From positions 1 through 22,953 of the IMG/VR virus record IMGVR_UViG_3300017746_000174: DNA of 22,953 nucleotides. The stretch is one strand, 5' to 3'. The position numbers were made by a program, and so were the translations under genes. This DNA is from a virus. Below the pieces are notes generated by a model. It worked only from the letters and a program-made list of their open reading frames with translations, was not told where the DNA came from and ran no database searches. Position 1 is the first letter of the stretch, and each line of letters opens with the position of its first letter. Below are positions 37 through 16,140 of this stretch, one piece after another.

Positions 37-60
37 GAGGGGCATCGACCCCTCTTTTTT
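37..60 (+). terminator. Rho-independent terminator
   Basis: A perfect 6-bp stem, GAGGGG (37-42) with CCCCTC (49-54), encloses the 6-base loop CATCGA and is followed directly by six T residues (55-60). It lies seven bases after the stop of the upstream gene. It separates that transcript from the block beginning at 89. Confidence 0.88.
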
Positions 61-68
61 AATAAATA
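61..68 (+). promoter_or_regulatory. Probable T4-type late promoter box (AATAAATA)
   Basis: AATAAATA differs from the T4 late -10 consensus TATAAATA only at the first base. It follows the terminator T-run immediately and lies 20 bases before the start of the 175-residue gene. Late promoters of T4-like phages need no -35 element and are read with gp55 and gp33 loaded by the sliding clamp. Such an AT-rich octamer can occur by chance, but the position between a terminator and a start codon supports it. Confidence 0.55.
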
Positions 69-88
69 TTTAAAACCAGATTGATATA

Positions 89-616
89 ATGAAAACATAT
101 AATCAATTCTATACTGAAGCAAATATTATACTTACAGAAAATGCTGCTACTGCAGGTACTCTTACTAAACCACGTACTGGTAATGCACTGACTAGATTAA
201 GAGATAGAGTTGGACAAGCATTATCTCCGGTGACTCGTCCCGTTAATAGGATTATGACTAGAGTTCAACCTTTTAAGAATCTTCAACGTGCCGCCAACGT
301 TCCTGCACTAGTCAGTAAGGATACAAATCTGTTGCAAAAAGGAAAAGCAGCACTTGGTATAGTTGCACCATATGCCACGATGACTGGTGACGCAATACTT
401 AATCAAGCTAAGTCAGGTTCAGCACTTGATCAATTATCTAAGTCAGGATCTAAGAATGTTCAAATACCAGTTCCTGGTACTAGTTTAACGATTGGACAGA
501 ATTCGGAGACTGATATCGGTAGAAGAACTGGCAACGCAATTAGTAGAGGATTAAAAGGACTTGCAAGTAGGATTCAACAATATGGTAATAATCCTAACAT
601 TAAACGCGGATACTAA
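89..616 (+). CDS. Small basic protein with a capsid-targeting-like N-terminus
   Basis: This 175-residue protein has no recognised domain. Its first residues, MKTYNQFYTEA, closely resemble the capsid targeting sequence of T4 internal proteins (MKTYQEFIAEA, from memory). That peptide directs proteins into the prohead and is cut after Glu by protease gp21. Candidate cut sites are FYTE/A (after residue 10) and ILTE/N (after residue 17). I count about 24 Lys+Arg against 8 Asp+Glu, and no Cys or Trp, as expected of a DNA-associated internal protein. The middle is Ala/Leu-rich and the C-terminus Gly/Asn/Arg-rich. No strong ribosome binding site precedes the ATG; the start is chosen because it creates the targeting-like peptide and follows the late box. 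Packaging in the head is inferred. MKTF/MKTY...EA starts also occur on other T4-like phage proteins, so this is not proof. Confidence 0.85.
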   Translation: MKTYNQFYTEANIILTENAATAGTLTKPRTGNALTRLRDRVGQALSPVTRPVNRIMTRVQPFKNLQRAANVPALVSKDTNLLQKGKAALGIVAPYATMTGDAILNQAKSGSALDQLSKSGSKNVQIPVPGTSLTIGQNSETDIGRRTGNAISRGLKGLASRIQQYGNNPNIKRGY

Positions 617-624
617 AATAAATA
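617..624 (+). promoter_or_regulatory. Possible late promoter box (AATAAATA)
   Basis: AATAAATA lies one base after the preceding stop codon and 51 bases before the next ATG at 676. It is the same octamer as at 61-68 and one base from the T4 late consensus. Spacing to the start is long but leaves room for a leader that carries the good TAGGAG ribosome binding site at 665-670. The call rests on the octamer and its intergenic position only. Confidence 0.45.
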
Positions 625-675: not shown

Positions 676-942
676 ATGGGCAATTCACCTGTCGATAGAA
701 GTTCCAACTACATGAAAGAGATGTGGGGAACCACAAGACTCGTTACTGACTACTACCAAAATGAAACAATGAACGATTTTCTCGACAATCTAGCTAATGA
801 TCAGCATCAGAAGATGCTTCGTGAGATTGCTAATGATGATATGACTCCTAAAAAGCATGATTCTAAGAAGCAAACTGAACTATATGAAAAAATTCGTGAT
901 GATAATGGTACAGAATCTACTTATGGTCAGATTTCTGAGTAG
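676..942 (+). CDS. Small acidic hypothetical phage protein
   Basis: I do not recognise this 88-residue protein. It is highly charged and hydrophilic, with clusters of Asp, Glu and Lys, many Asn and Gln, and no membrane segment or signal peptide. Residues from about 30 to the C-terminus look helical (NDFLDNLANDQHQKMLREIANDD, written here in prose only as an Asn/Asp/Leu-rich helix). A good Shine-Dalgarno sequence, TAGGAG at 665-670, lies five bases before the ATG and supports this start. It is flanked by late-type boxes on both sides and lies just before gp25, so late expression and a small role in virion assembly are plausible, but no function can be assigned. The overlapping open frame on the opposite strand (927-1157) is taken as a shadow of gp25. 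Confidence 0.75.
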   Translation: MGNSPVDRSSNYMKEMWGTTRLVTDYYQNETMNDFLDNLANDQHQKMLREIANDDMTPKKHDSKKQTELYEKIRDDNGTESTYGQISE

Positions 943-978: not shown

Positions 979-1380
979 ATGCCTAGTAAGAGGGTTTCAA
1001 GAGCATTCAAGGATATTAGTTTATCATTTGATCCACATCCTGTGACGAAAGACCTTCCTGTCTTGATTAATGAGCGTGCTGTTTCACGCTCAGTTCGTAA
1101 TTTGGTTGAAACAATACCGACAGAACGATTTTTTAACTCTGATCTAGGGTCTGACATTCGCAGAAGTCTCTTTGAGTTCGTTGATGTCGGTACTGCACGT
1201 ATTATTCAGGACCAAATTACCGATACAATTCAATTTTATGAGGATAGAGTTGAAAATATACAAGTTGAAGTCGATCCAAGACCTGATGATAATAGTTTTG
1301 ATATCAATGTATTCTTTGACATTGTAGGTCAAGATTTTCCACCCCAAGCATTTTCATTCATATTAGAGGCAACACGATAA
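979..1380 (+). CDS. 25: Baseplate wedge subunit gp25
   Basis: The protein is 133 residues, almost the same as T4 gp25 (132). The order of conserved features fits the gp25/gpW lysozyme-like structural family: an N-terminal FKDISLSFDPHPVTKDL stretch (about residues 10-26), an AVSRSVRNLVET helix (about 34-45), the ERFFNSDLGS turn (about 49-58) and a RRSLFEF helix. A basic-acidic C-terminal part follows, with ENIQVEVDPRPDD and a final beta strand. In T4, gp25 sits at the centre of the wedge with gp6 and gp53, contacts the tube-sheath junction and helps start sheath contraction. The ATG has no strong ribosome binding site, but the late box at 947-954 and family length support it. gp6 starts three bases after its stop, suggesting coupled translation. 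Arginine codons are mostly CGN, unlike the genes after about 3.8 kb. Confidence 0.95.
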   Translation: MPSKRVSRAFKDISLSFDPHPVTKDLPVLINERAVSRSVRNLVETIPTERFFNSDLGSDIRRSLFEFVDVGTARIIQDQITDTIQFYEDRVENIQVEVDPRPDDNSFDINVFFDIVGQDFPPQAFSFILEATR

Positions 1381-3291: not shown

Positions 3292-4185
3292 ATGTCTCAT
3301 TTTGAGAAGAGAGTGCAACTCAATAAAATTATTGAGAGCCAACTTCCAGAATTCTTAGTTGCAGACTTTCCAAAAGCTGTCGAATTTTTCAAACAATATT
3401 ATCTGTCGCTGGAGCACCAGGGCGGAAATGTTGATCTTATCGATAATCTTGATCGTTATATCAAGTTAGATAATCTCATCCCTGAGGTTGTCGTAGGTAA
3501 AGTATCTCTCTCATCAGCAGTATCTAAATCCGATACTGTTATTAATGTATCATCAACTGTTGGATTCCCAGATGAGTACGGTTTGTTACAGATCGGTGAT
3601 GAAATTGTAACGTATACGGACAAAACTGCAACTTCGTTTACTGGTTGTGTTCGTGGTTTTAGTGGGATCACTGGATATGATGTTGGCATCTCTAGTGTTT
3701 TCAGCAATGTAAATAAGCAAAATATTACATTTAGAGATTCTGCTGCTGCCGATCATGATCAAACAGTAGTTGTGAAAAACCTTAGTGTCCTATTCTTACA
3801 GGAATTCTATAAAAAGTTAAAGAGAACTTTTACTCCTGGTCTTGAGGAATATGATTTTGTTTCTGATTTGAATGTTGGAAACTTCATTAAACACGCAAGA
3901 AATTTTTATCAATCTAAAGGTATTGCAGAATCAATCAAGATTCTGTTTAAGGTATTATATGGTGCTGAAGCCACTGTAATTGATCTTGAAAATAGACTTA
4001 TCAAACCTTCTTCTGCAGAATATATTAGAAGAGAAATTATTGTAGCAGAAAATATATCTGGCAATCCATTCAAACTGGAAGGTCAAACAATATTCAAATC
4101 AAATGATTTTGATACAAATGCATCGGTATCTAATGTTGAGATCTTTACTAGAAATCAAAAAACATTCTATAAACTTGGATTGTTT
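3292..4185 (+). other. First part of the gp7-like core domain
   Basis: Residues 1-298 of the giant protein. The segment LPEFLVADFPKAVEFFKQYY (about 18-37) and the helix ending in KVLYGAE (220-226), with GQTIF at 264-268, follow in the order of T4 gp7 motifs that I recall (a SNFEAFCEAYIQYL helix, KGIEASYKFLFKVLY, then GQTIY). A small beta module, about residues 74-125, interrupts it and carries an IGDEIVTYT...FTGCVRG motif. Confidence 0.65.
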
Positions 4186-7100
4186 GTTGGATATAATGAC
4201 AGAGAATTAGTTGAAGGAATTTTTAGAATTCCTGGTGCATCAAGGTCTTTAGAACCAGTTAATGTAAATGATACTGTAATTAGTGTTGACTCCACAATTG
4301 GATTTGGTCAAACAGGAACAATAATTTCTGGTAATAATAGAATTGACTATACATCAAAGAGCATCAATCAGTTTTATGGATGTACTGGAGTTACATCTAA
4401 GATAGAACTGAATGATCTTGTTAGAGAAGATGAAACTATTTTTGGATATGAAGATGGTGATACTGAGAGTAGATGTGATATGCGAATCACAGGCGTTCTC
4501 TCCAAGTTTGTCGCATTAGAAGATATTCCTCTTATCGAAGAGGATGAACTTATTACTGTCAGAAATGTTGGTGAAGTTATTTTCAATCCTTCGAATGATA
4601 AGACTCAGGTACAAACATTTGCAAATTCTTGGATTTACAATACTAGCACAAGATTTGAAGTTGATTCTATTTCAGGTTCCGCATTCACACTGAAATCTGA
4701 TATTGATAAGTCAAGCCTGAAGGAAGGTGATTTTATAGAAGTTCTTATTGGTGATAGTCAGCAAGTTGTTGTTCCCGATCCAAATTCTTCTAATTCTTCC
4801 TTTGCTCAAGTCTCTAACATAAATGCAATTTCCAAAGAAGTTACACTTTCTAATACAGGAACATTTGTCGTAGATCCAACTAGAGAGTATAGTATTAGAA
4901 GAAAACTTGTTAAATCAAAGAGTTCTGGAGTCATTATATCTGTTGGTAATAATGTTTATATTGCTAATGCATTAAACGTCTATACTAATGATAATCAGGA
5001 ATTTGGTTACGTTGCTTCAAACTCATTACCTGGATACTCCATTCCAAGTAATATTGTAGAGTCTTCATTACTAGATGGAACAGTCTCCAATTTAGGAGAC
5101 TTTAGTGCATACTTTAAGAGTTATGGTTCTATCAAATTCTCTACACCAGTTGATTTTAGAGATGGTGATGAAATTAAATATACTGCCACAAATCAATTAT
5201 CTGGATTAGTTTCTGGTGAGTATTACTTTGTAAAACTAGTTGCACAAAATGAAATCAGAGTTTATTCATCCAAGTCAACATTGGGTGGAAATGAGTTTGT
5301 AAGAATCGGACCAAATAATAATACTGGAGTTCATAATTTTACATTAAGGCGTCACGAAAATAGAGAACTTTCTGGAAATAATATTTTAAGAAAGTTTCCA
5401 CTTTCTCAAAATAATATTAAAATTCAGAGCGAAAAAAGAGAATATGGTAATGTTGGTGTATTAGTTGATGGTGTAGAAATTTCTGGTCCAGCATCTAGAG
5501 ATAAGATCTACTATGGTCCTATTGAAGAGTTTGAAGTTCTTAATGGTGGAAGAGGATATGATGTAATTGCTCCACCTAAAATTACAATTTCTACTGGAGC
5601 AGGTTTAACAGCATATGTTGAACCAGTTGTTAAAGGAAGTGTAAAAGAAGTTTTTGTTGACCCCCAAGATTTTGATTTCCAAGAATTTTTATCAGTTTCT
5701 TTGACTGGTGGAAATGGATCTGGTTGTTCACTTGAACCTATTGTTGGACAAAGATTTAGAGAAGTAAGTTTTGATAGTCGCAATCTAATTCTTGGTGGCG
5801 GTATTGATATTAACAACGAAACAATTACATTTACTAAGAAGCATAATCTTGCCGATGGGCAGCATATTATTTACAATCATAATGGGAATGATCCAATTTC
5901 AACTGGAGACCCTTATGATTCAAATAACTTAGTAACTGGTAGTCTTGCTATTGGTGACGAATATGTTGCAAGAGTTGTAAACACTAGTACCATTAGATTA
6001 TTCAAAAATGATATTGATGCATTCTCTAGTGTAACGGGAATCAATACCATCGGACTATCAACAGCAACAAGTGCGGCTGGAATTCATAAGTTTAGAACTT
6101 TACCTCAGAAAAATTTAAGAGCGATTAAAGTATTAGATGGTGGTTCTGGATATACTCACAGAAAACTTAGAGTTAAAGCATCCGGTATTTCTACCGAATA
6201 TAACACGATTTACTTTGATAATCACGGATTAAAGACTGGAGAAGTTGTTACATATCAAACTACTGGAACTGAAGTAGTTGGTCTTTCCACATTGAATAGA
6301 TACTCTATTCAGAGACTAACTTCAGATAGTTTTAGAGTTGTCAATGTTGGTGTTGCTGGTACGTTCACATCAGATTTGAGTAGGGGAAAATACGTCAAGT
6401 TTGATTCTACTGGAAGTGGATATCAAGTATTCCAATATCCAGAGATCAGAGTAGATGCTAATGTTTCGTTTGGTGGAACTACTGGAACTTTCTCATTTAC
6501 TCCTGTAATAACAGGTGAAATTATTGATGCATACTTATATGAGTCTGGAACTGGATATGGTTCAACTACACTCAATTTGCATAAAAAACCGCTGATTAAT
6601 ATTAGTAAAGGCAAAAATGCTCAAGTTAATCCAGTCATTTCAAATGGAAGAATTGTAGATATTCAAGTTTTGAATAAAGGTTCTAATTATGAATCTACTC
6701 CAGATTTAACAATTGAAGATCCTTCTGGAGGAACTGGAGCAATCTTGAGACCTGTTATGGTCAATGACAGACTGGATGATGTCATCGTAATTAATAGTGG
6801 TATTGGATATAGTTCTGCATCTACGTCCATATTTGTAGATCCTAGAGGATCTGGTGTATTGTTCGATACTAGGATTAGAGTCCTTAACGTAAATGATGCT
6901 TATAGATTTGGAAAGATATCGGCAAATAATTCTACAAAGATTTACTCAAATCTCTATAAGAATGATGAAGAAAATTCCTTAGTATATGGAATTTATGGAT
7001 ATTCTGAAGATCTTGCATCCAACTTCGAACCTTTGAATGGATCTCACTCACCTATTATTGGGTGGGCATATGATGGAAACCCAATTTATGGACCTTTCGG

Positions 7101-10100
7101 ATATACATCTTCAGAAGATATTCAATCTGGTATTAAGAGACTTGAAACTGGATATGTCTTAAGAACTAGTTCTGTTCTAGATAGACCAAGTTTTGAACCA
7201 GGATTCTTTGTTGAAGATCATCAATATGATAATATTGGTGATTTAGATCATCATAATGGAAGATTCTGTAAAACGCCAGACTTCCCCAATGGGGTTTATG
7301 CATACTTTGCAGGTGTGACTACCAGTATAGTTTCTCCAGACTTTATACCGACTTATCCATACTTTGTTGGCAATAAGTTTAAGTCTAAAGTTATAAAGGA
7401 AAATTTAATTTTAGATCACTCATTTGACTTCAATACCGAAGAACTTGTCCGAAATACTTTCCCATATAAAGTCAATGATCCTTATGCGGATTATGATTTT
7501 GTTAATGAATCATATGAAGATTTTGAACAATCTACTATTGTCGAATCAGTTCTAAAAGGTGATGTGCCAGATATTCAAGTAATTGATGGTGGAACAGGAT
7601 ATTCTATTGGTGATAGAGTCAACTTCGATTTAGAGGACACTATAGGTTCTACTAGTGTAAGAGGAGAAGTTTCAGAACTTAAGGGAGTAGGAATTACCTC
7701 CCTCACAACTACTTTGGATTCAAATGTAGGTTGTGTATTTGTTTGGGATACTGATAATCAAGTATCCGCATATCAGTTGAAAGGATTTGATTTTAACAAT
7801 AATGATACTGTTCTTATCAGCGGTCTTTCGACTTCAGTCACATATCTTGCCGGTTCTAAGAAAATTGGATTCAGTACGGAGTCTGTAGGTTTAGCAGGAA
7901 CAATGACAAGTTACTCCAGTTTGCCTGGAGGAAAAACTGAAGATATATTTGTATCAAGACTATTCAACACAGTATCAATTGGAAATTCGATAACGATTGT
8001 CTCTTCTTCTGGAGATGAAGTTGTAACTGTACTAAACAACTTATCCAATGGCGTTCTTAGAGTTAAGAGATATGGTGCAACAGGTGCAGCACACTCGTTT
8101 GGTAGTGATTTAAACCTTTCATCAGATAGAGTTAAGTTGCCAGTTAAAACGGGCAAATTCACTTCTCAAAGAGATAATCTGGTTTACTTTAATGCAGCAG
8201 AATCTGTTGGTATTGGAACAACTATTGGTGCTGCTATTAATAAGGTAGTTCAAGTTGGTATCACCACAGAATTGGTTTCCATTCCTTGTAGATCCATATA
8301 TCTTCCAAATCACCCCTTCAAGACTGGTCAGAGACTTACCTTTACAAAAACAACAACTCCAGGTGTAAATTCTTTGATTGTTGGTAATGATCATTTAAAT
8401 ACAGCAACTTTCTTCATACCAAATCAAACATCACTATTATCGGAAGTATATGTAATTAATAAAGGTACTGATTTTATTGGATTAACAACACAAGTTGGTC
8501 TGACCACATCAACAGAAGGTTTATTCTTCTATAGTGATGGATCAGATAATGCAGAGTATCTTCTTAAAACCAATAAAAATCAACTTGTTGGTGATGTTGA
8601 TAGAATTACAACAGTTGTTGGTACCTCTGCAACACATGGTCTTCAAAGGGGCGATACTGTCAGATTGAGTGTTGTACCAAATACTGTTGTTGGTTTTGGA
8701 ACAACAGCAGCAGTAAAACTTAAATTGAATTTAGATGAGAAGAAAATACTCGTAAACACAATAGGTATCAATTCAACGTTTATCAGTCTCTCTGACGGTT
8801 CATTCACGTATACTGGTCATGGATACAATACTGGTGATAAAGTGTATTATGAGAGCACTGAAGTCGCTTCTGGATTGAGTACAGGATCTTATTACATTGT
8901 CAAAGATACTAGGGATAAATTTAGATTATCTGAAACTCTTTATGAGACAAAACCAGATTTTGAGCGTACATTACGTATGACCACCACTGGTGGTGTAATT
9001 CATAATATCTCAGCAATTAATCCAAAAATTGATGTTGTAAGAAATGGAGATTTAACATTTAATCTAGAAGATCCATCATTACTTGGATATCAATTAAAAA
9101 TCTACAGAGAAAGAGAATTTATTAATGAATACAACAGTTCTTTGGATAGTAGGGACTTTAACGTAGTTGGAGTTGGTAGTGTAGGAATTGGATCTCTTTC
9201 TAATGCTACACTCACGGTAAAACATTCTCCTAGTATTCCAACCAAACTGTATTATGGATTATCAAAGGGTGGATATATTAGTACAGCAGACACTGAGGTA
9301 TTAAATCATTCAGAAATTAACTATGTTGATAGTGAATACAATGGTGTTTACAGTGTATTTGGATTATCAACGACAGCGACATCACAATTCAGTGTTTCTC
9401 CAAAAATTTACCCTGATGTTTTGGAATATGATGATGAGCAATGTGATGAAATCAATTACTTCACAAGATCCTCGACCGCATTAAATGGTAGTATTTCTCA
9501 AGTTAGAGTTTTATCTAAAGGATTTAACTTTGAAAGACTTCCTAAGTTCAAGGATGTAACATCTACAAATGGTATCAATGCAAATATATTAGGCGTATCA
9601 ACTTCTATTGGTAGAATTAAAACAACTAGATTTAGAGATATTGGTTATGACTATGCATCTGATAGAACGCTAAGGCCCGAAGCATTTGTTCCACCTATCG
9701 TAAGTATTGATAATTTAGATGTAATCAAGAATATTAATATTGAATTTGGTGGTGAGAGATATCTGAGTGATCCTGATCTTTTACTTTGGAATGATACCAC
9801 AAAGAAAGTCGTAGACTCAACTACACTTCTTGCATTTGCACCAAATGGTTCTATTTCTGAAGTAGAGCAGATTGCACCTATATTTGGATTGCAGTCAGAA
9901 CCTCATAGAATAATCGCTATCAACAATTCGAATGGTGTTGGTATTGTGTCTATGGTTAGTGGACCTACAGGAATCGCTACTTGTGTCCTTAAAACTCCCA
10001 TACTTGGATATGCGTCACCACAATTTGCTGTGAATGATAAAATCTTTGTTGAAGGAATTGAAATGGCATCTCCAGATGGATCTGGATTCAATTCTCAAGA

Positions 10101-13100
10101 TTATGAATATCAGATGTTCAAGGTCATTCAATATGCTAATACTAGTCCAGCATCTTTGACCTTCCAACTTGTAGATGACTCTGGAGTTGGTTTAACCACG
10201 AATGCCGGTATTGCAAAAACTTTCCAATCTGGATATGCTACTTTAATCAATGAATCTAATTATCCAAGAATTACTATTGAGCAGGAAAGGGGTTCTTTTG
10301 TAGAAAATGAAAGATTATATCTAGATTCTGGACAAGGATACACTAGACAAGATCTATTTGTTTCTTTGGTGAGAGATGATTATATTAAAGTAAAGGGTAG
10401 GGCGAATCTTTTTGCGGGTGATACAATTAAAGGATTTATTAGTGGAACAATCGCAGATGTAACCTCTATAGACAGAAAGAGAGGTAAGTTTGAAATTGAG
10501 TATTCTTCTAAGAATAATATTGGTTGGAATAATGATATTGGTAAGATCAGTCAAGATTATCAAGTAACACCAAACAATGACTATTATCAGAATCTTTCAT
10601 ACTCAATCAAGAGTCCAATAACTTGGGATGAACTTTCAACTCCTGTTAATAGCATAGTTCACCCTGCAGGTCTTAAAAACTTTGCAGATGTTGGGGTATC
10701 ATCTAAAGCGTCAAGTAGAGTTGGACTTGGAGGAACTACTACTTCTATTGTGATTCTGGATGTTGTTAATGAAAGAAGGGTTGATACTGTTAATTACTTT
10801 GATAATACTCTTGATAATAATCCACGAGTAAGTTCTATTACTGGACTAACACAATCCAATGCTTTACAAATTCAAAATAGAAAATTAACAGATTTTATTG
10901 AATGTAGAACAAACAGAGTGTTGATTCATGATGATATTAGTGAACAGTTCTCCAGTAGAGGATTTAAAGATACTTTCTTAGAAATTGAAGAAATTTCTTT
11001 CCTTGATAATCATGTAAGATATCTTATTCAAATTGTTGATCCAGACACTGAAGATACTCAATTGAGTGAACTTGTAGTCCAATCTATAACAAATAATATA
11101 TTCTTGTTTGAGAAATATACTACATTTACAAAGAATAAACTTGGTAGTTTTGAAGCAGAAATTCAGGATGGTGATAGAAAAGTTCTAAAGTTTATTCCTG
11201 TTGATGCATTTGATACTGATTATGATATCAAAGTTCTGAAGAAAACATATCTGTATCAGGGATTACCTGCTGGAAGTTCTGGAATCGGTACTGAGAGTTT
11301 TGGATCTGTTGATTTAGTTTCATCTTTTGTTGGCGTCAATAGTGTAACAACTGGAATTAGTTCTAATACAAAAGTCATTGCACAATTTACAGATTCAGAT
11401 TTTAATGGATTGTTTGCGAGTATTGAAGTTTCAAATAGATTTACATCCGATACAAATTATATTGAGGCAACAATTGACTTTGATGGAACAAACACTTATG
11501 TAAGTGAATATTACTTTGATGCACAAACACTTTCTTACAGTAATTCAAGTGTTGGGATTATAAGTGCATTCCACGATACTTCAGCAGGTATTGTATCAAT
11601 TACTGCATATAATGCCAGCAATGAATTTATTGATGTACGTAGCAATATAGTTGGATTTGCAAATACAGTTGCTGGTATTGGAACTTATAGATTCCTTCTC
11701 AACAATCAACCAGTAGGTGCAGAGAAGAGTGCAAGATATGAGTCTGTCAATGGACTTGGATCTAATGTTGTTAGAGCGGGTACCTTTGATATAAGATCTA
11801 TCTCCTCTGCTGCTTCCATTGTCCGTGTTTCTGCTGGAACTACATCAGCAATACATCAAGTTGCTATTATGGCAAACTCCAGAGTTGGAGATATTGTTGT
11901 TGTTCCTGGAACATTCTCGGCAACAAATAATGTTACTGGTCTCGGTACATTTGGTGGTGAACGTGTTGGAAATCAGTTCTATCTTAACTTCTATCCAGAT
12001 TCTCCTTACAATGTAGAACTTCAATCTTTCAATGAAGTCTTCTATAGAGAGATGGATTTTGATAATCAAGCAAATCCACTTTCATATGGACCAACTAATA
12101 AGTTATTGTTCCTTACAGCATATGATGGATTGAATGGTCTTAGAGCAAATAGGACCAATTTTGTAATCAAACATGATGGCAAACCAATCTATATGAAGGA
12201 ATTTGATCCTAGTAATACAACATTACTTAATTATTCAAGTGGTTTATTCACAATGCAAGATCACTTCTTCAATACTGGAGAAGAACTTCTATACAATCCA
12301 AAATCAACGTTTGTTGGTGTTGGACAGACTGCAATGGGTATTGGTGCAACCTCCAACTATGCAGGTATTGTTACCGATAGACTTCCTGAAAAAGTTTATC
12401 CAATTGCAATTACTCCAGATACATTCAAACTTGCAACAACGCCACAATTTGCAAGATCTGGGATATTTGTAACATTCACTAATGCTGGGGAAGGTAATTC
12501 TCATGAATTAGAGTTTACTAAGAAACTGAGTAAGAGTGTTATTGCAATTGATGGAATTGTACAACAACCTATTACCTTTACTCCAATTAATCATAGATTA
12601 GATCATAATGGTCATTACTTAACTGGTGGTATAAGCGCAGGAATTTCTACATTCAACATTTCAGGTATTTCTTCCATTCAACCAAGAGATTTACTTTTAG
12701 TTGATGATGAATTTATGTCTATTGTTGAGGTTGGATTTAGTACCAATGTTACTGGTGAAGTTCTTGGACCAATTAGTGGTATCATCGCTTCTGGTGCTGG
12801 TGCTACTTTCCCAACAGTATCTGTTAAGAGAGGTACAGTCGGAACTGCAGCAACAACTCACTTTGATGGCGCTAACGTTCAGATTTATAGAGGTTCATTC
12901 AACATTGTTAAGAATAAAGTTCACTTTACTGATCCACCAAAAGGAAATAATAGAGCAAGAAGAAATGAGAGCAATCTGCCATATGTACAGGCAGCATTCT
13001 CTGGAAGAACTTTTTTAAGATCTAATTATGATTCTAATATGGTATTTGATGATATTTCTGACGAATTCACTGGAATCGGAAAAACTTTCTCACTTAAAGT

Positions 13101-16100
13101 TGGTGGTGCTGTTACAACTGGCGTTGATTCAGGAAATGGTATTCTATTCATTAATGGCGTATTCCAAACACCATCTACTGAAAACAATGCAGGTAATACT
13201 TACGAATTTACTAGAGATGTCACTGCAGGAATCAGCAGTGTTATCTACACTGGAATCAGTTCTGTTGATGGTTCACCTATTGAATCCAAATTCGATATCA
13301 ATCAAAACCAAATTCCAAGAGGTGGACTTATTGTTTCCTTAGGATCTACTCCAGGTCTTGGATATGCACCCCTTCTTGGTGCAAAAGTTAAAGCAGAAAA
13401 GAATTCCACTGGTCAGATTACCAATATTATTGGAATTAATACTATTACTACCGCAGTTTCTATTAGCACAGCACTTTATAATGAAGTAAGTGGTATTTTA
13501 GAAATTGAAACTACAGATTCACATAATCTTAGAGGTGGTGATAGAGTAAAATTAGATAGTCTTGAATTTAGTTGTGCTTCAGCACATTCTGGCGTTACAA
13601 CAACTATCTTCCCAGATTATGATTATCCAGTAGATGTATTCAATGTTATTTCAGCAACTGAAGCTGCAATCAAAGTTGGTCCTAGCACTATACCTCACAC
13701 ATATGAGGGTGGTGGAACTCTTGCAAGACACTTTATTCAGAACTTTGGTTCTGGATATAGATCACCAGTTTCTATTGGTGTTACTGATCTTGCATATGAT
13801 CACAGATTTGTAAGATCCACAAATAATAGCATTACTGCAAGCAGTGGTGGTCCATTCACACCAACAAATGCTAGATTTACTTCTCACACCGGAGTTCTTC
13901 AATTAACTATTTCCAATCATGGATTAGATACTGCTGACACTATTCAAATTGCAACGGATAGTTTAGTATTCACTTGCTCAGATGATGACTTCTTTACTGA
14001 GCAACCATATCCAAGAGCAACTGATCCTGCTGCAGGAGCAACTTTGGGTATTACCACCTTCACCACAAATACAATTAGTGTTGGTGTTGGATCTGCAGGT
14101 GGGGGAGGAACTGGTGCCGTTATTGAAGCATCGGTTGGTATTGGTGGAACATTATCCTTTACAATCACAAATCCTGGTAAAGGATATATTAATCCATCAA
14201 TTATTATTCCAGAACCAAATTATGAAAATATGGAAATCGTTGGTGTATCAAGACTTGGTATTGGTGCAACAACTGAAGTTGGTAAGAATTTGCTCCTGAA
14301 CTTAACAGTTGGATCTGCAGGAACAAGTGTTGGAATTGGGTCTACATTATTCCTTATTGATGAATTTAAGATCTCAAGATCTGGATATGGATTCCAACCT
14401 GGCGACGTTATGGAGGTTGTTGGTCTTGTTACAGCAAAAGACTTTGCCACACCAGTCAATCCTTTCCAACTTGAAGTTGTTGAGACATTCAATGATAAAT
14501 TCTCGTCTTGGTCATTTGGTGAAATGGATTACATTGATAGTGTACTTGGATTCCAAAATGGTTCAAGAAAGAGATTCCCGCTCTTCTATAGAGGTGAATT
14601 GCTTAGTTTTGAATTGGATGTAAATAATCCACTTTCTTCTGCAATTGATTTAGATTCTGTTCTTATTATATTTGTAAACGGAGTATTACAGACTCCTGGA
14701 TATGCATATCAGTTTACTGGCGGAACATCATTCGTATTCACTGAATCACCCAAAGCAAATGATAAAGTTGATATTTTCTTCTACTTAGGTATTGATGGTG
14801 TAGATGTTACTCAAGTTGAAACTACTGAAACTATTAAGATTGGTGATGAAGTCTTTGTAAGAAAGCATCCCAATTTTAATGAAACTGCAGATCAACTTCG
14901 CAAAAGAAGTATCACTGAAATCACCGGATCAGATATCTTTGAGACAGATATTTACAGTGGTCCAGGTGTTAATGATACTATCTTCAGACCATTTGATTGG
15001 ATCAAACAGAAAAAAGACAAATTTGTTAAAGGGGATCTTATTAGTAAAGTAAGACCAATTTTAGAAACTAAAGTATTCCCAACAGCAAGAATCATTGGTG
15101 ATGTTTCATCCACATCTTCTGATATTTTTGTTGATAATGCACAATTCTTTGATTATGATGAAATAATTCTCGACTTAAGTCAAAATACATTTACATTTGA
15201 TGCATTTATGATGGATTCTATTGAACCAGTCTCTGCTGCATTTACTTCTACAGTTTCGGTTGCTGGAACTGTTTCTAATGTATCAATCACAAATGCTGGT
15301 GTAGGATATACGGTTACTTCTGCAGATATCAAATTTTCTGCTCCAAAAGAAATTGGTGTTGGAATTGGAACCACTGCAACTGGAACTGCCACTATATCCA
15401 ATGGTCAAGTTACTGCTATTTCAATTACAAATTCTGGATTTGGATATACAAATACAAATCCACCACAGATAATTATTGAAACACCAAGAGCAGCATCAGA
15501 GAATGTTTCTAATGTTAGCAATGTTCAAGGATTTAGTGGAATTATTACTGGAATCAGCACTTCTGTTGGTACGGGTGGTCATCCATTAGCACTTAAGTTT
15601 AACTTCCGTGCAATGAAAGATTATGGTGTTAATGGAGAAGCAGAAGTTGCTTCTGATGCTTTAGATTTACAGGTCGGTTATCCTGTAATGATTTATAACA
15701 CAACAGTTGGAAATGGAGTAACCTCGGTAAATAGTAGCGATAGTGCGGTTGTTGGTATTGGTACTACATTCTTAGACAATGTTTATATTGTAAATAATAT
15801 TACAAGTCTTGCTTCAAACGCAGAAATTACTTGTAACGTCCATTCCAACAGTCCAATTATTGGAATTTTGGAAAATGGAAACTTTGATGATAATAATGCA
15901 GGATTGACAACTTCTCTTGGAACTTTATCTTGGGGAAGAATATTTAATTATGATAATAGAAATGGTATTGCAATCGGAGTCACTGGACTAACAGTTGATT
16001 CAGAGTTGTCAACATTCCCAACTATTCAAAGAAGAGGAAACTTTGGTGAAGGTAAAACTGGAGCAGTTCGTTCCACAAAACCACGCGCCGATGGTGTAAG

Positions 16101-16140
16101 TATTCAATCAGATAATATTCTGAATTTCTATATTCTATAA
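3292..16140 (+). CDS. Giant gp7-like baseplate wedge / virion structural protein with YHYH-type domain
   Basis: This is a single uninterrupted frame of 4282 residues. Residues 1-45 and 160-298 resemble the C-terminal part of T4 gp7, including QSKGIAESIKILFKVLYGAE (208-227) and GQTIF (264-268). Residues 2430-2470 (YYQNLSYSIKSP, then IVHPAGL) resemble the end of the same gp7 domain. About 2,100 residues lie between them: GxGY repeats, H-G-x-x-TGD repeats and a YHYH-type domain (about 1227-1361). About 1,800 more residues follow, with three NGVxQxP-type modules. The position between gp6 and gp8 is that of gene 7. In T4, gp7 links the wedge core to gp8 and gp10; the added modules would form an outer belt or fibre, which is inference. 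The start has a good ribosome binding site (AGAGAGGAA, 3276-3284) overlapping the end of gp6. The length is far above T4 gp7 (1032). No signal peptide or membrane segment is seen. Confidence 0.93.
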   Translation: MSHFEKRVQLNKIIESQLPEFLVADFPKAVEFFKQYYLSLEHQGGNVDLIDNLDRYIKLDNLIPEVVVGKVSLSSAVSKSDTVINVSSTVGFPDEYGLLQIGDEIVTYTDKTATSFTGCVRGFSGITGYDVGISSVFSNVNKQNITFRDSAAADHDQTVVVKNLSVLFLQEFYKKLKRTFTPGLEEYDFVSDLNVGNFIKHARNFYQSKGIAESIKILFKVLYGAEATVIDLENRLIKPSSAEYIRREIIVAENISGNPFKLEGQTIFKSNDFDTNASVSNVEIFTRNQKTFYKLGLFVGYNDRELVEGIFRIPGASRSLEPVNVNDTVISVDSTIGFGQTGTIISGNNRIDYTSKSINQFYGCTGVTSKIELNDLVREDETIFGYEDGDTESRCDMRITGVLSKFVALEDIPLIEEDELITVRNVGEVIFNPSNDKTQVQTFANSWIYNTSTRFEVDSISGSAFTLKSDIDKSSLKEGDFIEVLIGDSQQVVVPDPNSSNSSFAQVSNINAISKEVTLSNTGTFVVDPTREYSIRRKLVKSKSSGVIISVGNNVYIANALNVYTNDNQEFGYVASNSLPGYSIPSNIVESSLLDGTVSNLGDFSAYFKSYGSIKFSTPVDFRDGDEIKYTATNQLSGLVSGEYYFVKLVAQNEIRVYSSKSTLGGNEFVRIGPNNNTGVHNFTLRRHENRELSGNNILRKFPLSQNNIKIQSEKREYGNVGVLVDGVEISGPASRDKIYYGPIEEFEVLNGGRGYDVIAPPKITISTGAGLTAYVEPVVKGSVKEVFVDPQDFDFQEFLSVSLTGGNGSGCSLEPIVGQRFREVSFDSRNLILGGGIDINNETITFTKKHNLADGQHIIYNHNGNDPISTGDPYDSNNLVTGSLAIGDEYVARVVNTSTIRLFKNDIDAFSSVTGINTIGLSTATSAAGIHKFRTLPQKNLRAIKVLDGGSGYTHRKLRVKASGISTEYNTIYFDNHGLKTGEVVTYQTTGTEVVGLSTLNRYSIQRLTSDSFRVVNVGVAGTFTSDLSRGKYVKFDSTGSGYQVFQYPEIRVDANVSFGGTTGTFSFTPVITGEIIDAYLYESGTGYGSTTLNLHKKPLINISKGKNAQVNPVISNGRIVDIQVLNKGSNYESTPDLTIEDPSGGTGAILRPVMVNDRLDDVIVINSGIGYSSASTSIFVDPRGSGVLFDTRIRVLNVNDAYRFGKISANNSTKIYSNLYKNDEENSLVYGIYGYSEDLASNFEPLNGSHSPIIGWAYDGNPIYGPFGYTSSEDIQSGIKRLETGYVLRTSSVLDRPSFEPGFFVEDHQYDNIGDLDHHNGRFCKTPDFPNGVYAYFAGVTTSIVSPDFIPTYPYFVGNKFKSKVIKENLILDHSFDFNTEELVRNTFPYKVNDPYADYDFVNESYEDFEQSTIVESVLKGDVPDIQVIDGGTGYSIGDRVNFDLEDTIGSTSVRGEVSELKGVGITSLTTTLDSNVGCVFVWDTDNQVSAYQLKGFDFNNNDTVLISGLSTSVTYLAGSKKIGFSTESVGLAGTMTSYSSLPGGKTEDIFVSRLFNTVSIGNSITIVSSSGDEVVTVLNNLSNGVLRVKRYGATGAAHSFGSDLNLSSDRVKLPVKTGKFTSQRDNLVYFNAAESVGIGTTIGAAINKVVQVGITTELVSIPCRSIYLPNHPFKTGQRLTFTKTTTPGVNSLIVGNDHLNTATFFIPNQTSLLSEVYVINKGTDFIGLTTQVGLTTSTEGLFFYSDGSDNAEYLLKTNKNQLVGDVDRITTVVGTSATHGLQRGDTVRLSVVPNTVVGFGTTAAVKLKLNLDEKKILVNTIGINSTFISLSDGSFTYTGHGYNTGDKVYYESTEVASGLSTGSYYIVKDTRDKFRLSETLYETKPDFERTLRMTTTGGVIHNISAINPKIDVVRNGDLTFNLEDPSLLGYQLKIYREREFINEYNSSLDSRDFNVVGVGSVGIGSLSNATLTVKHSPSIPTKLYYGLSKGGYISTADTEVLNHSEINYVDSEYNGVYSVFGLSTTATSQFSVSPKIYPDVLEYDDEQCDEINYFTRSSTALNGSISQVRVLSKGFNFERLPKFKDVTSTNGINANILGVSTSIGRIKTTRFRDIGYDYASDRTLRPEAFVPPIVSIDNLDVIKNINIEFGGERYLSDPDLLLWNDTTKKVVDSTTLLAFAPNGSISEVEQIAPIFGLQSEPHRIIAINNSNGVGIVSMVSGPTGIATCVLKTPILGYASPQFAVNDKIFVEGIEMASPDGSGFNSQDYEYQMFKVIQYANTSPASLTFQLVDDSGVGLTTNAGIAKTFQSGYATLINESNYPRITIEQERGSFVENERLYLDSGQGYTRQDLFVSLVRDDYIKVKGRANLFAGDTIKGFISGTIADVTSIDRKRGKFEIEYSSKNNIGWNNDIGKISQDYQVTPNNDYYQNLSYSIKSPITWDELSTPVNSIVHPAGLKNFADVGVSSKASSRVGLGGTTTSIVILDVVNERRVDTVNYFDNTLDNNPRVSSITGLTQSNALQIQNRKLTDFIECRTNRVLIHDDISEQFSSRGFKDTFLEIEEISFLDNHVRYLIQIVDPDTEDTQLSELVVQSITNNIFLFEKYTTFTKNKLGSFEAEIQDGDRKVLKFIPVDAFDTDYDIKVLKKTYLYQGLPAGSSGIGTESFGSVDLVSSFVGVNSVTTGISSNTKVIAQFTDSDFNGLFASIEVSNRFTSDTNYIEATIDFDGTNTYVSEYYFDAQTLSYSNSSVGIISAFHDTSAGIVSITAYNASNEFIDVRSNIVGFANTVAGIGTYRFLLNNQPVGAEKSARYESVNGLGSNVVRAGTFDIRSISSAASIVRVSAGTTSAIHQVAIMANSRVGDIVVVPGTFSATNNVTGLGTFGGERVGNQFYLNFYPDSPYNVELQSFNEVFYREMDFDNQANPLSYGPTNKLLFLTAYDGLNGLRANRTNFVIKHDGKPIYMKEFDPSNTTLLNYSSGLFTMQDHFFNTGEELLYNPKSTFVGVGQTAMGIGATSNYAGIVTDRLPEKVYPIAITPDTFKLATTPQFARSGIFVTFTNAGEGNSHELEFTKKLSKSVIAIDGIVQQPITFTPINHRLDHNGHYLTGGISAGISTFNISGISSIQPRDLLLVDDEFMSIVEVGFSTNVTGEVLGPISGIIASGAGATFPTVSVKRGTVGTAATTHFDGANVQIYRGSFNIVKNKVHFTDPPKGNNRARRNESNLPYVQAAFSGRTFLRSNYDSNMVFDDISDEFTGIGKTFSLKVGGAVTTGVDSGNGILFINGVFQTPSTENNAGNTYEFTRDVTAGISSVIYTGISSVDGSPIESKFDINQNQIPRGGLIVSLGSTPGLGYAPLLGAKVKAEKNSTGQITNIIGINTITTAVSISTALYNEVSGILEIETTDSHNLRGGDRVKLDSLEFSCASAHSGVTTTIFPDYDYPVDVFNVISATEAAIKVGPSTIPHTYEGGGTLARHFIQNFGSGYRSPVSIGVTDLAYDHRFVRSTNNSITASSGGPFTPTNARFTSHTGVLQLTISNHGLDTADTIQIATDSLVFTCSDDDFFTEQPYPRATDPAAGATLGITTFTTNTISVGVGSAGGGGTGAVIEASVGIGGTLSFTITNPGKGYINPSIIIPEPNYENMEIVGVSRLGIGATTEVGKNLLLNLTVGSAGTSVGIGSTLFLIDEFKISRSGYGFQPGDVMEVVGLVTAKDFATPVNPFQLEVVETFNDKFSSWSFGEMDYIDSVLGFQNGSRKRFPLFYRGELLSFELDVNNPLSSAIDLDSVLIIFVNGVLQTPGYAYQFTGGTSFVFTESPKANDKVDIFFYLGIDGVDVTQVETTETIKIGDEVFVRKHPNFNETADQLRKRSITEITGSDIFETDIYSGPGVNDTIFRPFDWIKQKKDKFVKGDLISKVRPILETKVFPTARIIGDVSSTSSDIFVDNAQFFDYDEIILDLSQNTFTFDAFMMDSIEPVSAAFTSTVSVAGTVSNVSITNAGVGYTVTSADIKFSAPKEIGVGIGTTATGTATISNGQVTAISITNSGFGYTNTNPPQIIIETPRAASENVSNVSNVQGFSGIITGISTSVGTGGHPLALKFNFRAMKDYGVNGEAEVASDALDLQVGYPVMIYNTTVGNGVTSVNSSDSAVVGIGTTFLDNVYIVNNITSLASNAEITCNVHSNSPIIGILENGNFDDNNAGLTTSLGTLSWGRIFNYDNRNGIAIGVTGLTVDSELSTFPTIQRRGNFGEGKTGAVRSTKPRADGVSIQSDNILNFYIL
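3502..3666 (+). repeat. IGDExxxYT-type bead module, copy 1
   Basis: Residues about 71-125 contain SDTVINVSSTVGF, IGDEIVTYT and FTGCVRG. A second copy occurs at about residues 324-367 (nt 4261-4392), with NDTVISVDSTIGF, NRIDYT and FYGCTGV. The shared pattern is D-T-V-I-x-V-x-S-T-x-G-F, about 15 residues, then a Y-T strand and F-x-G-C. The two copies are about 240 residues apart. Such small beta modules are common as insertions in phage tail proteins. Confidence 0.6.
4261..4392 (+). repeat. IGDExxxYT-type bead module, copy 2
   Basis: Residues about 324-367 repeat the pattern of the module near residue 75: NDTVISVDSTIGF matches SDTVINVSSTVGF in 9 of 13 positions. A Y-T strand and FYGCTG follow, in place of FTGCVRG. 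It lies immediately after the first part of the gp7-like core and starts the long inserted region. Confidence 0.6.
5821..6360 (+). repeat. HGLxTGDxVxY-type repeats in the gp7-like insertion (first pair)
   Basis: Two units are seen. One has KHNLADGQHIIYNHNG and ends with STIRLFKN (residues about 850-890). The other has DNHGLKTGEVVTYQTTG and ends with TSDSFRVVNVG (about 976-1021). The pattern is His-Gly/Asn-Leu, three to four residues, Gly-Asp/Glu, a V-x-Y strand, then about 20 residues later a strand of type D-x-F-R-V. Related units recur near residues 620, 1674, 1782, 1843, 2991, 3411 and 3543 of the same protein. Confidence 0.6.
6406..6828 (+). repeat. Tandem GxGY repeats, about 40-45 residues each
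   Basis: The motif GSGY (Tyr1044), GTGY (Tyr1089), GSNY (Tyr1133) and GIGY (Tyr1173) recurs at spacings of 45, 44 and 40 residues. Each is preceded by a short V/I-rich strand with N/S-x-G and followed by a P-x-I/L-x-I strand and often a G-T-G/G-G-T turn. More isolated copies lie near residues 756, 954, 1437, 3489, 3632, 4006 and 4052. A regular beta-rich rod or belt is the likely structure, by inference. Confidence 0.7.
6970..7374 (+). other. YHYH-type domain inside the giant protein, signature altered
   Basis: Residues about 1227-1361 contain the landmark GWAYDGNPIYGPFGY (1257-1271), then an acidic His-rich stretch (DLDHHNGRF, ending at Phe1325), TPDFPNGVYAYFAG and YPYFVGN (1355-1361). These match the order of landmarks in YHYH-domain proteins (A-Y-D-G-x-P-I-Y-G-P; N-G-R-F...T-P-D-x-P-x-G-x-Y-H-Y-H; Y-P-Y-x-x-G). 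The eponymous Y-H-Y-H reads Y-A-Y-F here (1336-1339). The function of this domain in virions is unknown to me. Confidence 0.7.
10579..10701 (+). other. Second part of the gp7-like core domain
   Basis: Residues 2430-2470 read DYYQNLSYSIKSPITWDEL followed by VNSIVHPAGLKNFADVGV. They resemble T4 gp7 near its end, where I recall SYYVMKIKS, a Trp about eight residues later, then VIRFVHPVGFGF. YYQ-x-x-S-Y-x-I followed by V-H-P-A-G-x-x-x-F is a recurrent signature in large phage baseplate proteins. Its separation from KVLYGAE (220-226) by about 2,200 residues is the unusual point; in T4 gp7 the gap is roughly a hundred residues. Confidence 0.6.
12541..12950 (+). repeat. NGVxQxP-type module with DDEFM motif (copy 1 of 3)
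   Basis: Residues about 3082-3220 contain IDGIVQQP (3086-3093), then DDEFMSIVEV, VKRGTVGTAATTHFDGA and KVHFTDPPKG. Two further NGVxQxP modules follow: INGVFQTP (3287-3294, about nt 13150-13173) and VNGVLQTPGYAY (from about 3795, nt 14674-14709, ending in DIFFYLG). The three share I/V-N/D-G-V/I-x-Q-x-P and a later aromatic strand. They mark the C-terminal part of the protein as a series of beta modules typical of phage tail periphery proteins. Confidence 0.55.
15286..15480 (+). repeat. C-terminal GxGY repeat pair
   Basis: NAGVGYTVTSADIKFSAP (Tyr4006) and NSGFGYTNTNPPQIIIETP (Tyr4052) are spaced 46 residues apart. They are separated by a Gly/Thr-rich linker with VGIGTTATGTA and an ISNGQVTAISIT strand. 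The pair matches the units at 6406-6828 in motif and spacing, over 8 kb away in the same gene. Confidence 0.65.

Follow-up and report, generated by a model that had tools for sequence, protein, structure and literature searches.

The window, by which we mean the whole 22,953-base IMG/VR fragment analysed here, derives from an uncultured T4-like ocean cyanophage whose closest records are the Prochlorococcus phages P-SSM2 and P-SSM5 and a single-cell marine virus (67% nucleotide identity). It carries an open reading frame at positions 89-616 (ORF 89-616) that is followed by gp25, gp6, a gene in the gp7 position and gp8. The ORF lies ahead of gp25 and three genes upstream of gp6, in agreement with the first-pass annotation, which had placed it beside the baseplate genes. 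The locus comprises the following features:

37-60, plus strand: terminator of the upstream gene, a stem of 37-42 with 49-54 (GAGGGG...CCCCTC) and then a run of six T (folding energy -11.3 kcal/mol, z -3.8).
61-68, plus strand: late promoter box of T4 type, AATAAATA, which precedes the ATG by 28 nt; NATAAATA stands ahead of all 11 leader ORFs of this locus type.
89-616, plus strand: leader-bearing ORF for a basic protein of 175 amino acids (aa), predicted to be a capsid-targeted internal (ejected) head protein.
89-121, plus strand: capsid-targeting-like leader MKTYNQFYTEA, in which Tyr4 and Phe7 correspond to the T4 targeting residues, at the same positions in ipII and ipIII.
116-118, plus strand: codon of Glu10, first possible cleavage site, a non-canonical Y-T-E (from the translation and the position-8 statistics).
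137-139, plus strand: codon of Glu17, predicted main cleavage site, a canonical L-T-E (LTE kept in the aligned homologue L003; second-site statistics).
140-613, plus strand: variable basic body, probably injected cargo (158 aa, pI 11.5), with no known homologue beyond its own family.
617-624, plus strand: late promoter box AATAAATA ahead of the following gene, by which the exchange cassette is bounded on its 3′ side.
676-942, plus strand: small conserved gene (MGNSPVDR..., phrog_1414-like, 88 aa) that bounds the variable slot on the right.
947-954: exact T4 late box TATAAATA for gp25.
979-1380, plus strand: gp25, baseplate wedge (phrog_261, 2.7e-48; PF04965, 1e-11).

The gene in the gp7 position (window 3292-16140) is one open frame of 4,282 aa. 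The prohead protease gene region lies beyond the reach of the window fragment; an S77 prohead protease (PF03420) was found in all four complete relatives searched (P-SSM2, S-SRM01, S-SKS1 and S-CREM2) and in the L029 contig. On the near-complete 231-kb contig that carries L008 (L179), the protease gene is open from its start codon to about residue 93 and the frame is then lost, through either an assembly error or a real break.

The translation of ORF 89-616 (plus strand, 175 aa) begins MKTYNQFYTEANIILTENAATAG... and yields a product with a net charge of +16, a pI of 10.9 and neither Cys nor Trp, just as the first-pass annotation had described it (strongly basic, without Cys and Trp). Counted from residue 18, the protein has 158 aa, 16.7 kDa, a charge of +17 and a pI of 11.5, again with zero Cys and zero Trp. 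Comparison of the product with Pfam, PHROGs, PADLOC and PDB sequences, and tblastn against 50,697 phage records, gave chance-level matches only, and an AlphaFold2 model of the body built from three sequences was uninformative (pLDDT 37). Searches of IMG/VR with the product retrieved only an identical copy in contig 3300020438_000115 and homologues of 184 aa in two further contigs, which bear the same leader at an overall identity of 55%. An 18-aa unit (LRxxxGQAxSPVTRPVxx) is present in one additional copy in the 184-aa homologues; it stands in tandem in the homologue at L003 4787-5341 and is single in the ORF 89-616 product.

The close likeness of MKTYNQFYTEA to a T4 internal protein leader, on which the earlier reading had rested, was confirmed in the T4 record, where IPII and IPIII start with MKTYQEFIAEA and share M1, K2, T3, Y4, F7, E10 and A11 with our protein. 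We searched the DNA of eleven genomes with the pattern M-K-x-[FY]-x-x-[FY]-x-x-E, using the reversed pattern as a control. The forward pattern gave 21 matches and the reversed pattern one across the 11 records, and in a run over 10 records the reversed pattern gave zero; because the controls are near zero, the leader resemblance is not a matter of chance. The blind search recovered ipII, ipIII and gene 61.1 in T4, and a few genes in each cyanophage, for the most part small genes of unknown function and one that is cytidylyltransferase/NMNAT-like. Gene 61.1, the sole T4 match besides ipII and ipIII, encodes an uncharacterised 54-aa protein (AF158101 18966-19130, L131 967-1131) that starts MKTFKEFIKED and may be an unrecognised internal protein. 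Proteins of about 105 aa in which NISGDFNG... follows the leader form a conserved family in S-SRM01, S-SKS1, S-SZBM1, S-SCSM1 and an IMG/VR contig (L118, L119, L129, L130 44215-44535 and L216); the family is absent from the two virion lists available.

A stricter pattern, with codons 8 and 9 left free, was then applied to IMG/VR, and 86 matches were read. Open frames of at least 40 aa accounted for 84 of these, and the leader-bearing frames fell into 54 unrelated body clusters. Among the Pfam domains of the bodies are ART-PolyVal, S-AdoMet lyase, GNAT, DPBB and cytidylyltransferase (CTP_transf_like), and several bodies match PHROGs annotated as internal head or internal virion proteins. A gp23 capsid gene together with an S77 protease was present in six of the seven source contigs of at least 130 kb.

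In the T4 leader, residues 4 and 7 govern targeting and residues 8 and 10 govern processing, gp21 cleaves after L/I-x-E, and propeptides are 10-19 residues long (PMC9026906). The IMG/VR clusters carry the same signature: position 8, free in the pattern, is occupied by I or L in 40 of the 54 (p about 1e-21), compared with 10 of 54 at the equally free position 9. Clusters that lack I/L at position 8 more often have a second L/I-x-E at residues 12-25 (7/14 versus 7/40 of those with I/L8, p 0.024), and the ORF 89-616 product is of this second-site type, with Y8-T-E10 followed by L15-T-E17. Aromatic residues occupy positions 4 and 7 (Tyr4 and Phe7), and a gp21 motif that would close a propeptide of 10-19 residues is present as L15-T16-E17, which is kept in the aligned homologues; Glu10 alone (Y-T-E) does not supply one. 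Tyr at position 8 makes Glu10 poorly suited to cleavage, and for this reason we rejected it as the main cut. The proposal of prohead-protease sites after both Glu10 and Glu17 is thereby retained for the canonical Glu17 and weakened for the non-canonical Y8-T9-E10. The behaviour of positions 4, 7, 8 and 10 supports the assignment of the ORF 89-616 leader as a putative T4-type capsid targeting sequence.

Comparison of relatives at the same locus revealed that the slot flanked by a 49-aa gene and the MGNSPVDR gene is occupied by leader-bearing ORFs of four body families or, alternatively, by an AdoMet decarboxylase, a 2OG oxygenase, a phrog_3704 protein or no gene. Alignment among the four leader families extends no further than residues 1-13 to 1-21, and their bodies are unrelated, so that the search among relatives called for in the first-pass annotation, for a kept leader with variable bodies, turned up exactly this arrangement at one locus. 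At the DNA level, members of different families are 55-93% identical across the 75 upstream bases and 67-82% across leader codons 1-11; identity is 23-52% across codons 12-20 and 24-41% across the body, and again 62-90% across the downstream flank and 84-95% across gp25. Similarity breaks down at codon 11. The terminator, late promoter and leader are common to the relatives and the bodies differ. From these alignments the locus is read as an exchange cassette, in which the body is replaced wholesale and the promoter, leader, terminator and downstream genes are kept. Such replacement would be expected if the body is an effector on which different hosts exert pressure. The C-termini of two slot body families that are otherwise unrelated (L005, L009, L010, L003 and the window leader ORFs) read I/V-R/K-x-G-Y, which may be left over from common cassette ends; as a shared C-terminal signal the motif was dropped, being common to only two of the four families.

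The terminator stem is re-formed with different bases in the aligned relatives L017 and L186, and in the aligned leader ORFs of this locus NATAAATA stands directly behind the terminator hairpin. This box, the published late promoter of cyanophages (PMC2984593), lies 26-31 nt upstream of the leader ORF in 11 of 11 cases of this locus type, and within 70 nt upstream in 29 of 82 leader ORFs elsewhere, compared with 2.2% of random 70-mers. On the basis of the promoter box, late expression of ORF 89-616 is predicted.

A leader profile built only from this locus, its near relatives and T4 ipII/ipIII was scanned over 942 S-CREM2 ORFs and compared with the published virion set (52 of about 219 genes; PMC10665884). 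The four top-ranked ORFs (ORF154 cytidylyltransferase, ORF136, ORF13 and ORF14 kinase) were all virion-detected, with a chance probability of p 0.003 for a top-four cut chosen after the ranking had been seen. The ORF6 SAM hydrolase (rank 8) was virion-detected too, as was the ORF12 nuclease, which has a leader-like LRFASFMAEA from residue 17. ORFs 12-15 (L173 7704-13331) form a virion-detected cluster annotated as a Cas9-like nuclease, a kinase and two small proteins. Three of these four ORFs start in a leader-like way, and the group looks like a second cargo cluster. In other cyanophages, the virion-labelled NMNAT of S-SCSM1 has the leader at its start and the virion-detected cytidylyltransferase of S-SZBM1 starts MRFRQFIIEA. 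A pattern search of S-CBWM1, in whose virion an NMNAT is reported, gave no match to the strict leader pattern, and three small proteins of unknown function with good leaders (S-SZBM1_191, S-SZBM1_192 and S-SCSM1_30) are absent from the published virion lists of S-SZBM1 and S-SCSM1. The first-pass annotation had named the same leader on non-packaged enzymes as an argument against packaging; the enzymes concerned (cytidylyltransferase/NMNAT, SAM hydrolase and kinase) proved to be virion-detected, whereas the three small proteins were not. Leader-bearing enzymes are reported in the virions of S-CREM2 and S-SCSM1 (PMC10665884, PMC9602691), and for those of S-CREM2 the authors could not exclude co-purification (PMC10665884). 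Packaging, which the leader favours, is the likelier explanation than co-purification for the S-CREM2 enzymes.

Taken together, and in support of the first-pass reading, ORF 89-616 probably encodes a late-expressed, capsid-targeted internal head protein whose leader is trimmed and whose body is ejected with the DNA, as judged from sequence. From the sequence features and what is known of T4, the gene would be transcribed late from its own NATAAATA promoter; the leader, with Tyr4 and Phe7 as key contacts, would bring the protein into the prohead core; and a gp21-type prohead protease would cut the leader, most likely after Glu17 (L-T-E/N) and perhaps also after Glu10. By analogy, the basic body would be kept in the head with the DNA and would enter the host together with it. 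Packaging is well supported by inference, and we infer cleavage and injection. A counter-defence role for the body, as opposed to one in head assembly or DNA condensation, is a guess that we offer tentatively. Precedents come from T4, where IPI is an inhibitor of a restriction enzyme and phage lacking IPIII cannot grow on one E. coli strain; leaderless IPIII restores that growth, which suggests a cytoplasmic anti-defence role (PMC9391042).

The leader might instead direct the protein to the prohead core for work in head assembly or DNA condensation, as a core or scaffold accessory with no task in the new host. Such a part would suit a small, very basic body; T4 IPIII mutants have head assembly defects, assembly being one proposed IPIII role (PMC9026906), and the absence of gp67 and gp68 from cyanophages (PMC2984593) makes a replacement core protein conceivable. 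However, an assembly part is expected to be conserved, and here the body is unrelated or missing in close relatives whose gp25 genes share 84-96% DNA identity; moreover, other leader-bearing proteins are enzymes. We consider this reading unlikely, and we favour an effector over an assembly part because the body is replaced among close relatives.

Two further readings dispense with the head interior. The likeness of the leader could be accidental or a feature of the translation start, the protein acting in the cytoplasm late in infection, and the three small leader-bearing proteins missing from the published virion lists fit such a view. Yet an aromatic residue at position 4, Phe7, I/L8, Glu10 and Ala/Ser11 recur at fixed spacing on unrelated bodies, the reversed-pattern controls are near zero and leader-bearing proteins are detected in virions, which makes this reading very improbable. 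That the product is a tail- or baseplate-associated virion protein, hence its position next to gp25 and the other baseplate wedge genes, is also very improbable: the leader matches head-internal proteins, and the slot, which in relatives holds an AdoMet decarboxylase, a 2OG oxygenase or nothing, is thereby marked as a place for cargo and not as part of a baseplate operon.

As a predicted internal head protein with a leader, the ORF 89-616 product resembles T4 IPII/IPIII (and IPI) in its leader, M-K-T-Y-x-x-F-x-x-E-A, its basic body, its predicted late expression and the lack of body conservation among related phages, and a cut at Glu17 would leave a propeptide within the 10-19 residues of T4 (PMC9026906). 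It differs from the T4 internal proteins in its unrelated body, in Tyr at position 8 where T4 has Ile, which places the predicted main cut at Glu17, in its cyanobacterial host and in a locus beside gp25, whereas that of T4 is near the lysozyme gene. The cyanophage virion enzymes (the SAM hydrolase, APH-like kinase and cytidylyltransferase of S-CREM2 and the NMNAT of S-SCSM1) have the same leader type but are 286-755 aa long, whereas the present protein is basic, of 175 aa and without a recognised domain. The T4 Alt ADP-ribosyltransferase is packaged, injected and trimmed by gp21 (PMC9026906), as we propose for our protein; no sequence relation was seen between the two, and Alt homologues are reported to be absent from cyanomyoviruses and alt, with gp67 and gp68, from cyanophages (PMC2984593). 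The DarA/Hdf defence-against-restriction proteins of P1, which belong to another phage family, are reported to be head-associated with a counter-defence role (PMC12810830), and the likeness to the ORF 89-616 product is one of description.

That T4-like phages have a capsid targeting sequence is already known, and it has been suggested to let them package various proteins (PMC9026906). That paper was the only result of a full-text literature search for capsid targeting and cyanophage, most subscription journals lying outside its scope, and use of the sequence in cyanophages appears undescribed. We think it probable that cyanophages use the T4 capsid targeting sequence generally, as a tag by which effectors and enzymes are loaded for injection, and that in one or more dedicated cassette slots the effector body is exchanged while the promoter and leader ahead of it stay fixed. 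More interest attaches to the exchange cassette and to the connection with virion enzymes than to the ORF 89-616 product itself. If the loading tag is general, the puzzling metabolic and regulatory enzymes in cyanophage virions would be accounted for, and every phage strain would inject its own set of proteins. A recognisable leader would provide a mechanism by which virion enzymes (SAM hydrolase, kinase, NMNAT-like) are packaged as opposed to co-purified, as well as a sequence test for the proteins that a marine cyanophage brings into its host, and would allow candidate injected counter-defence proteins to be listed in uncultured phages.
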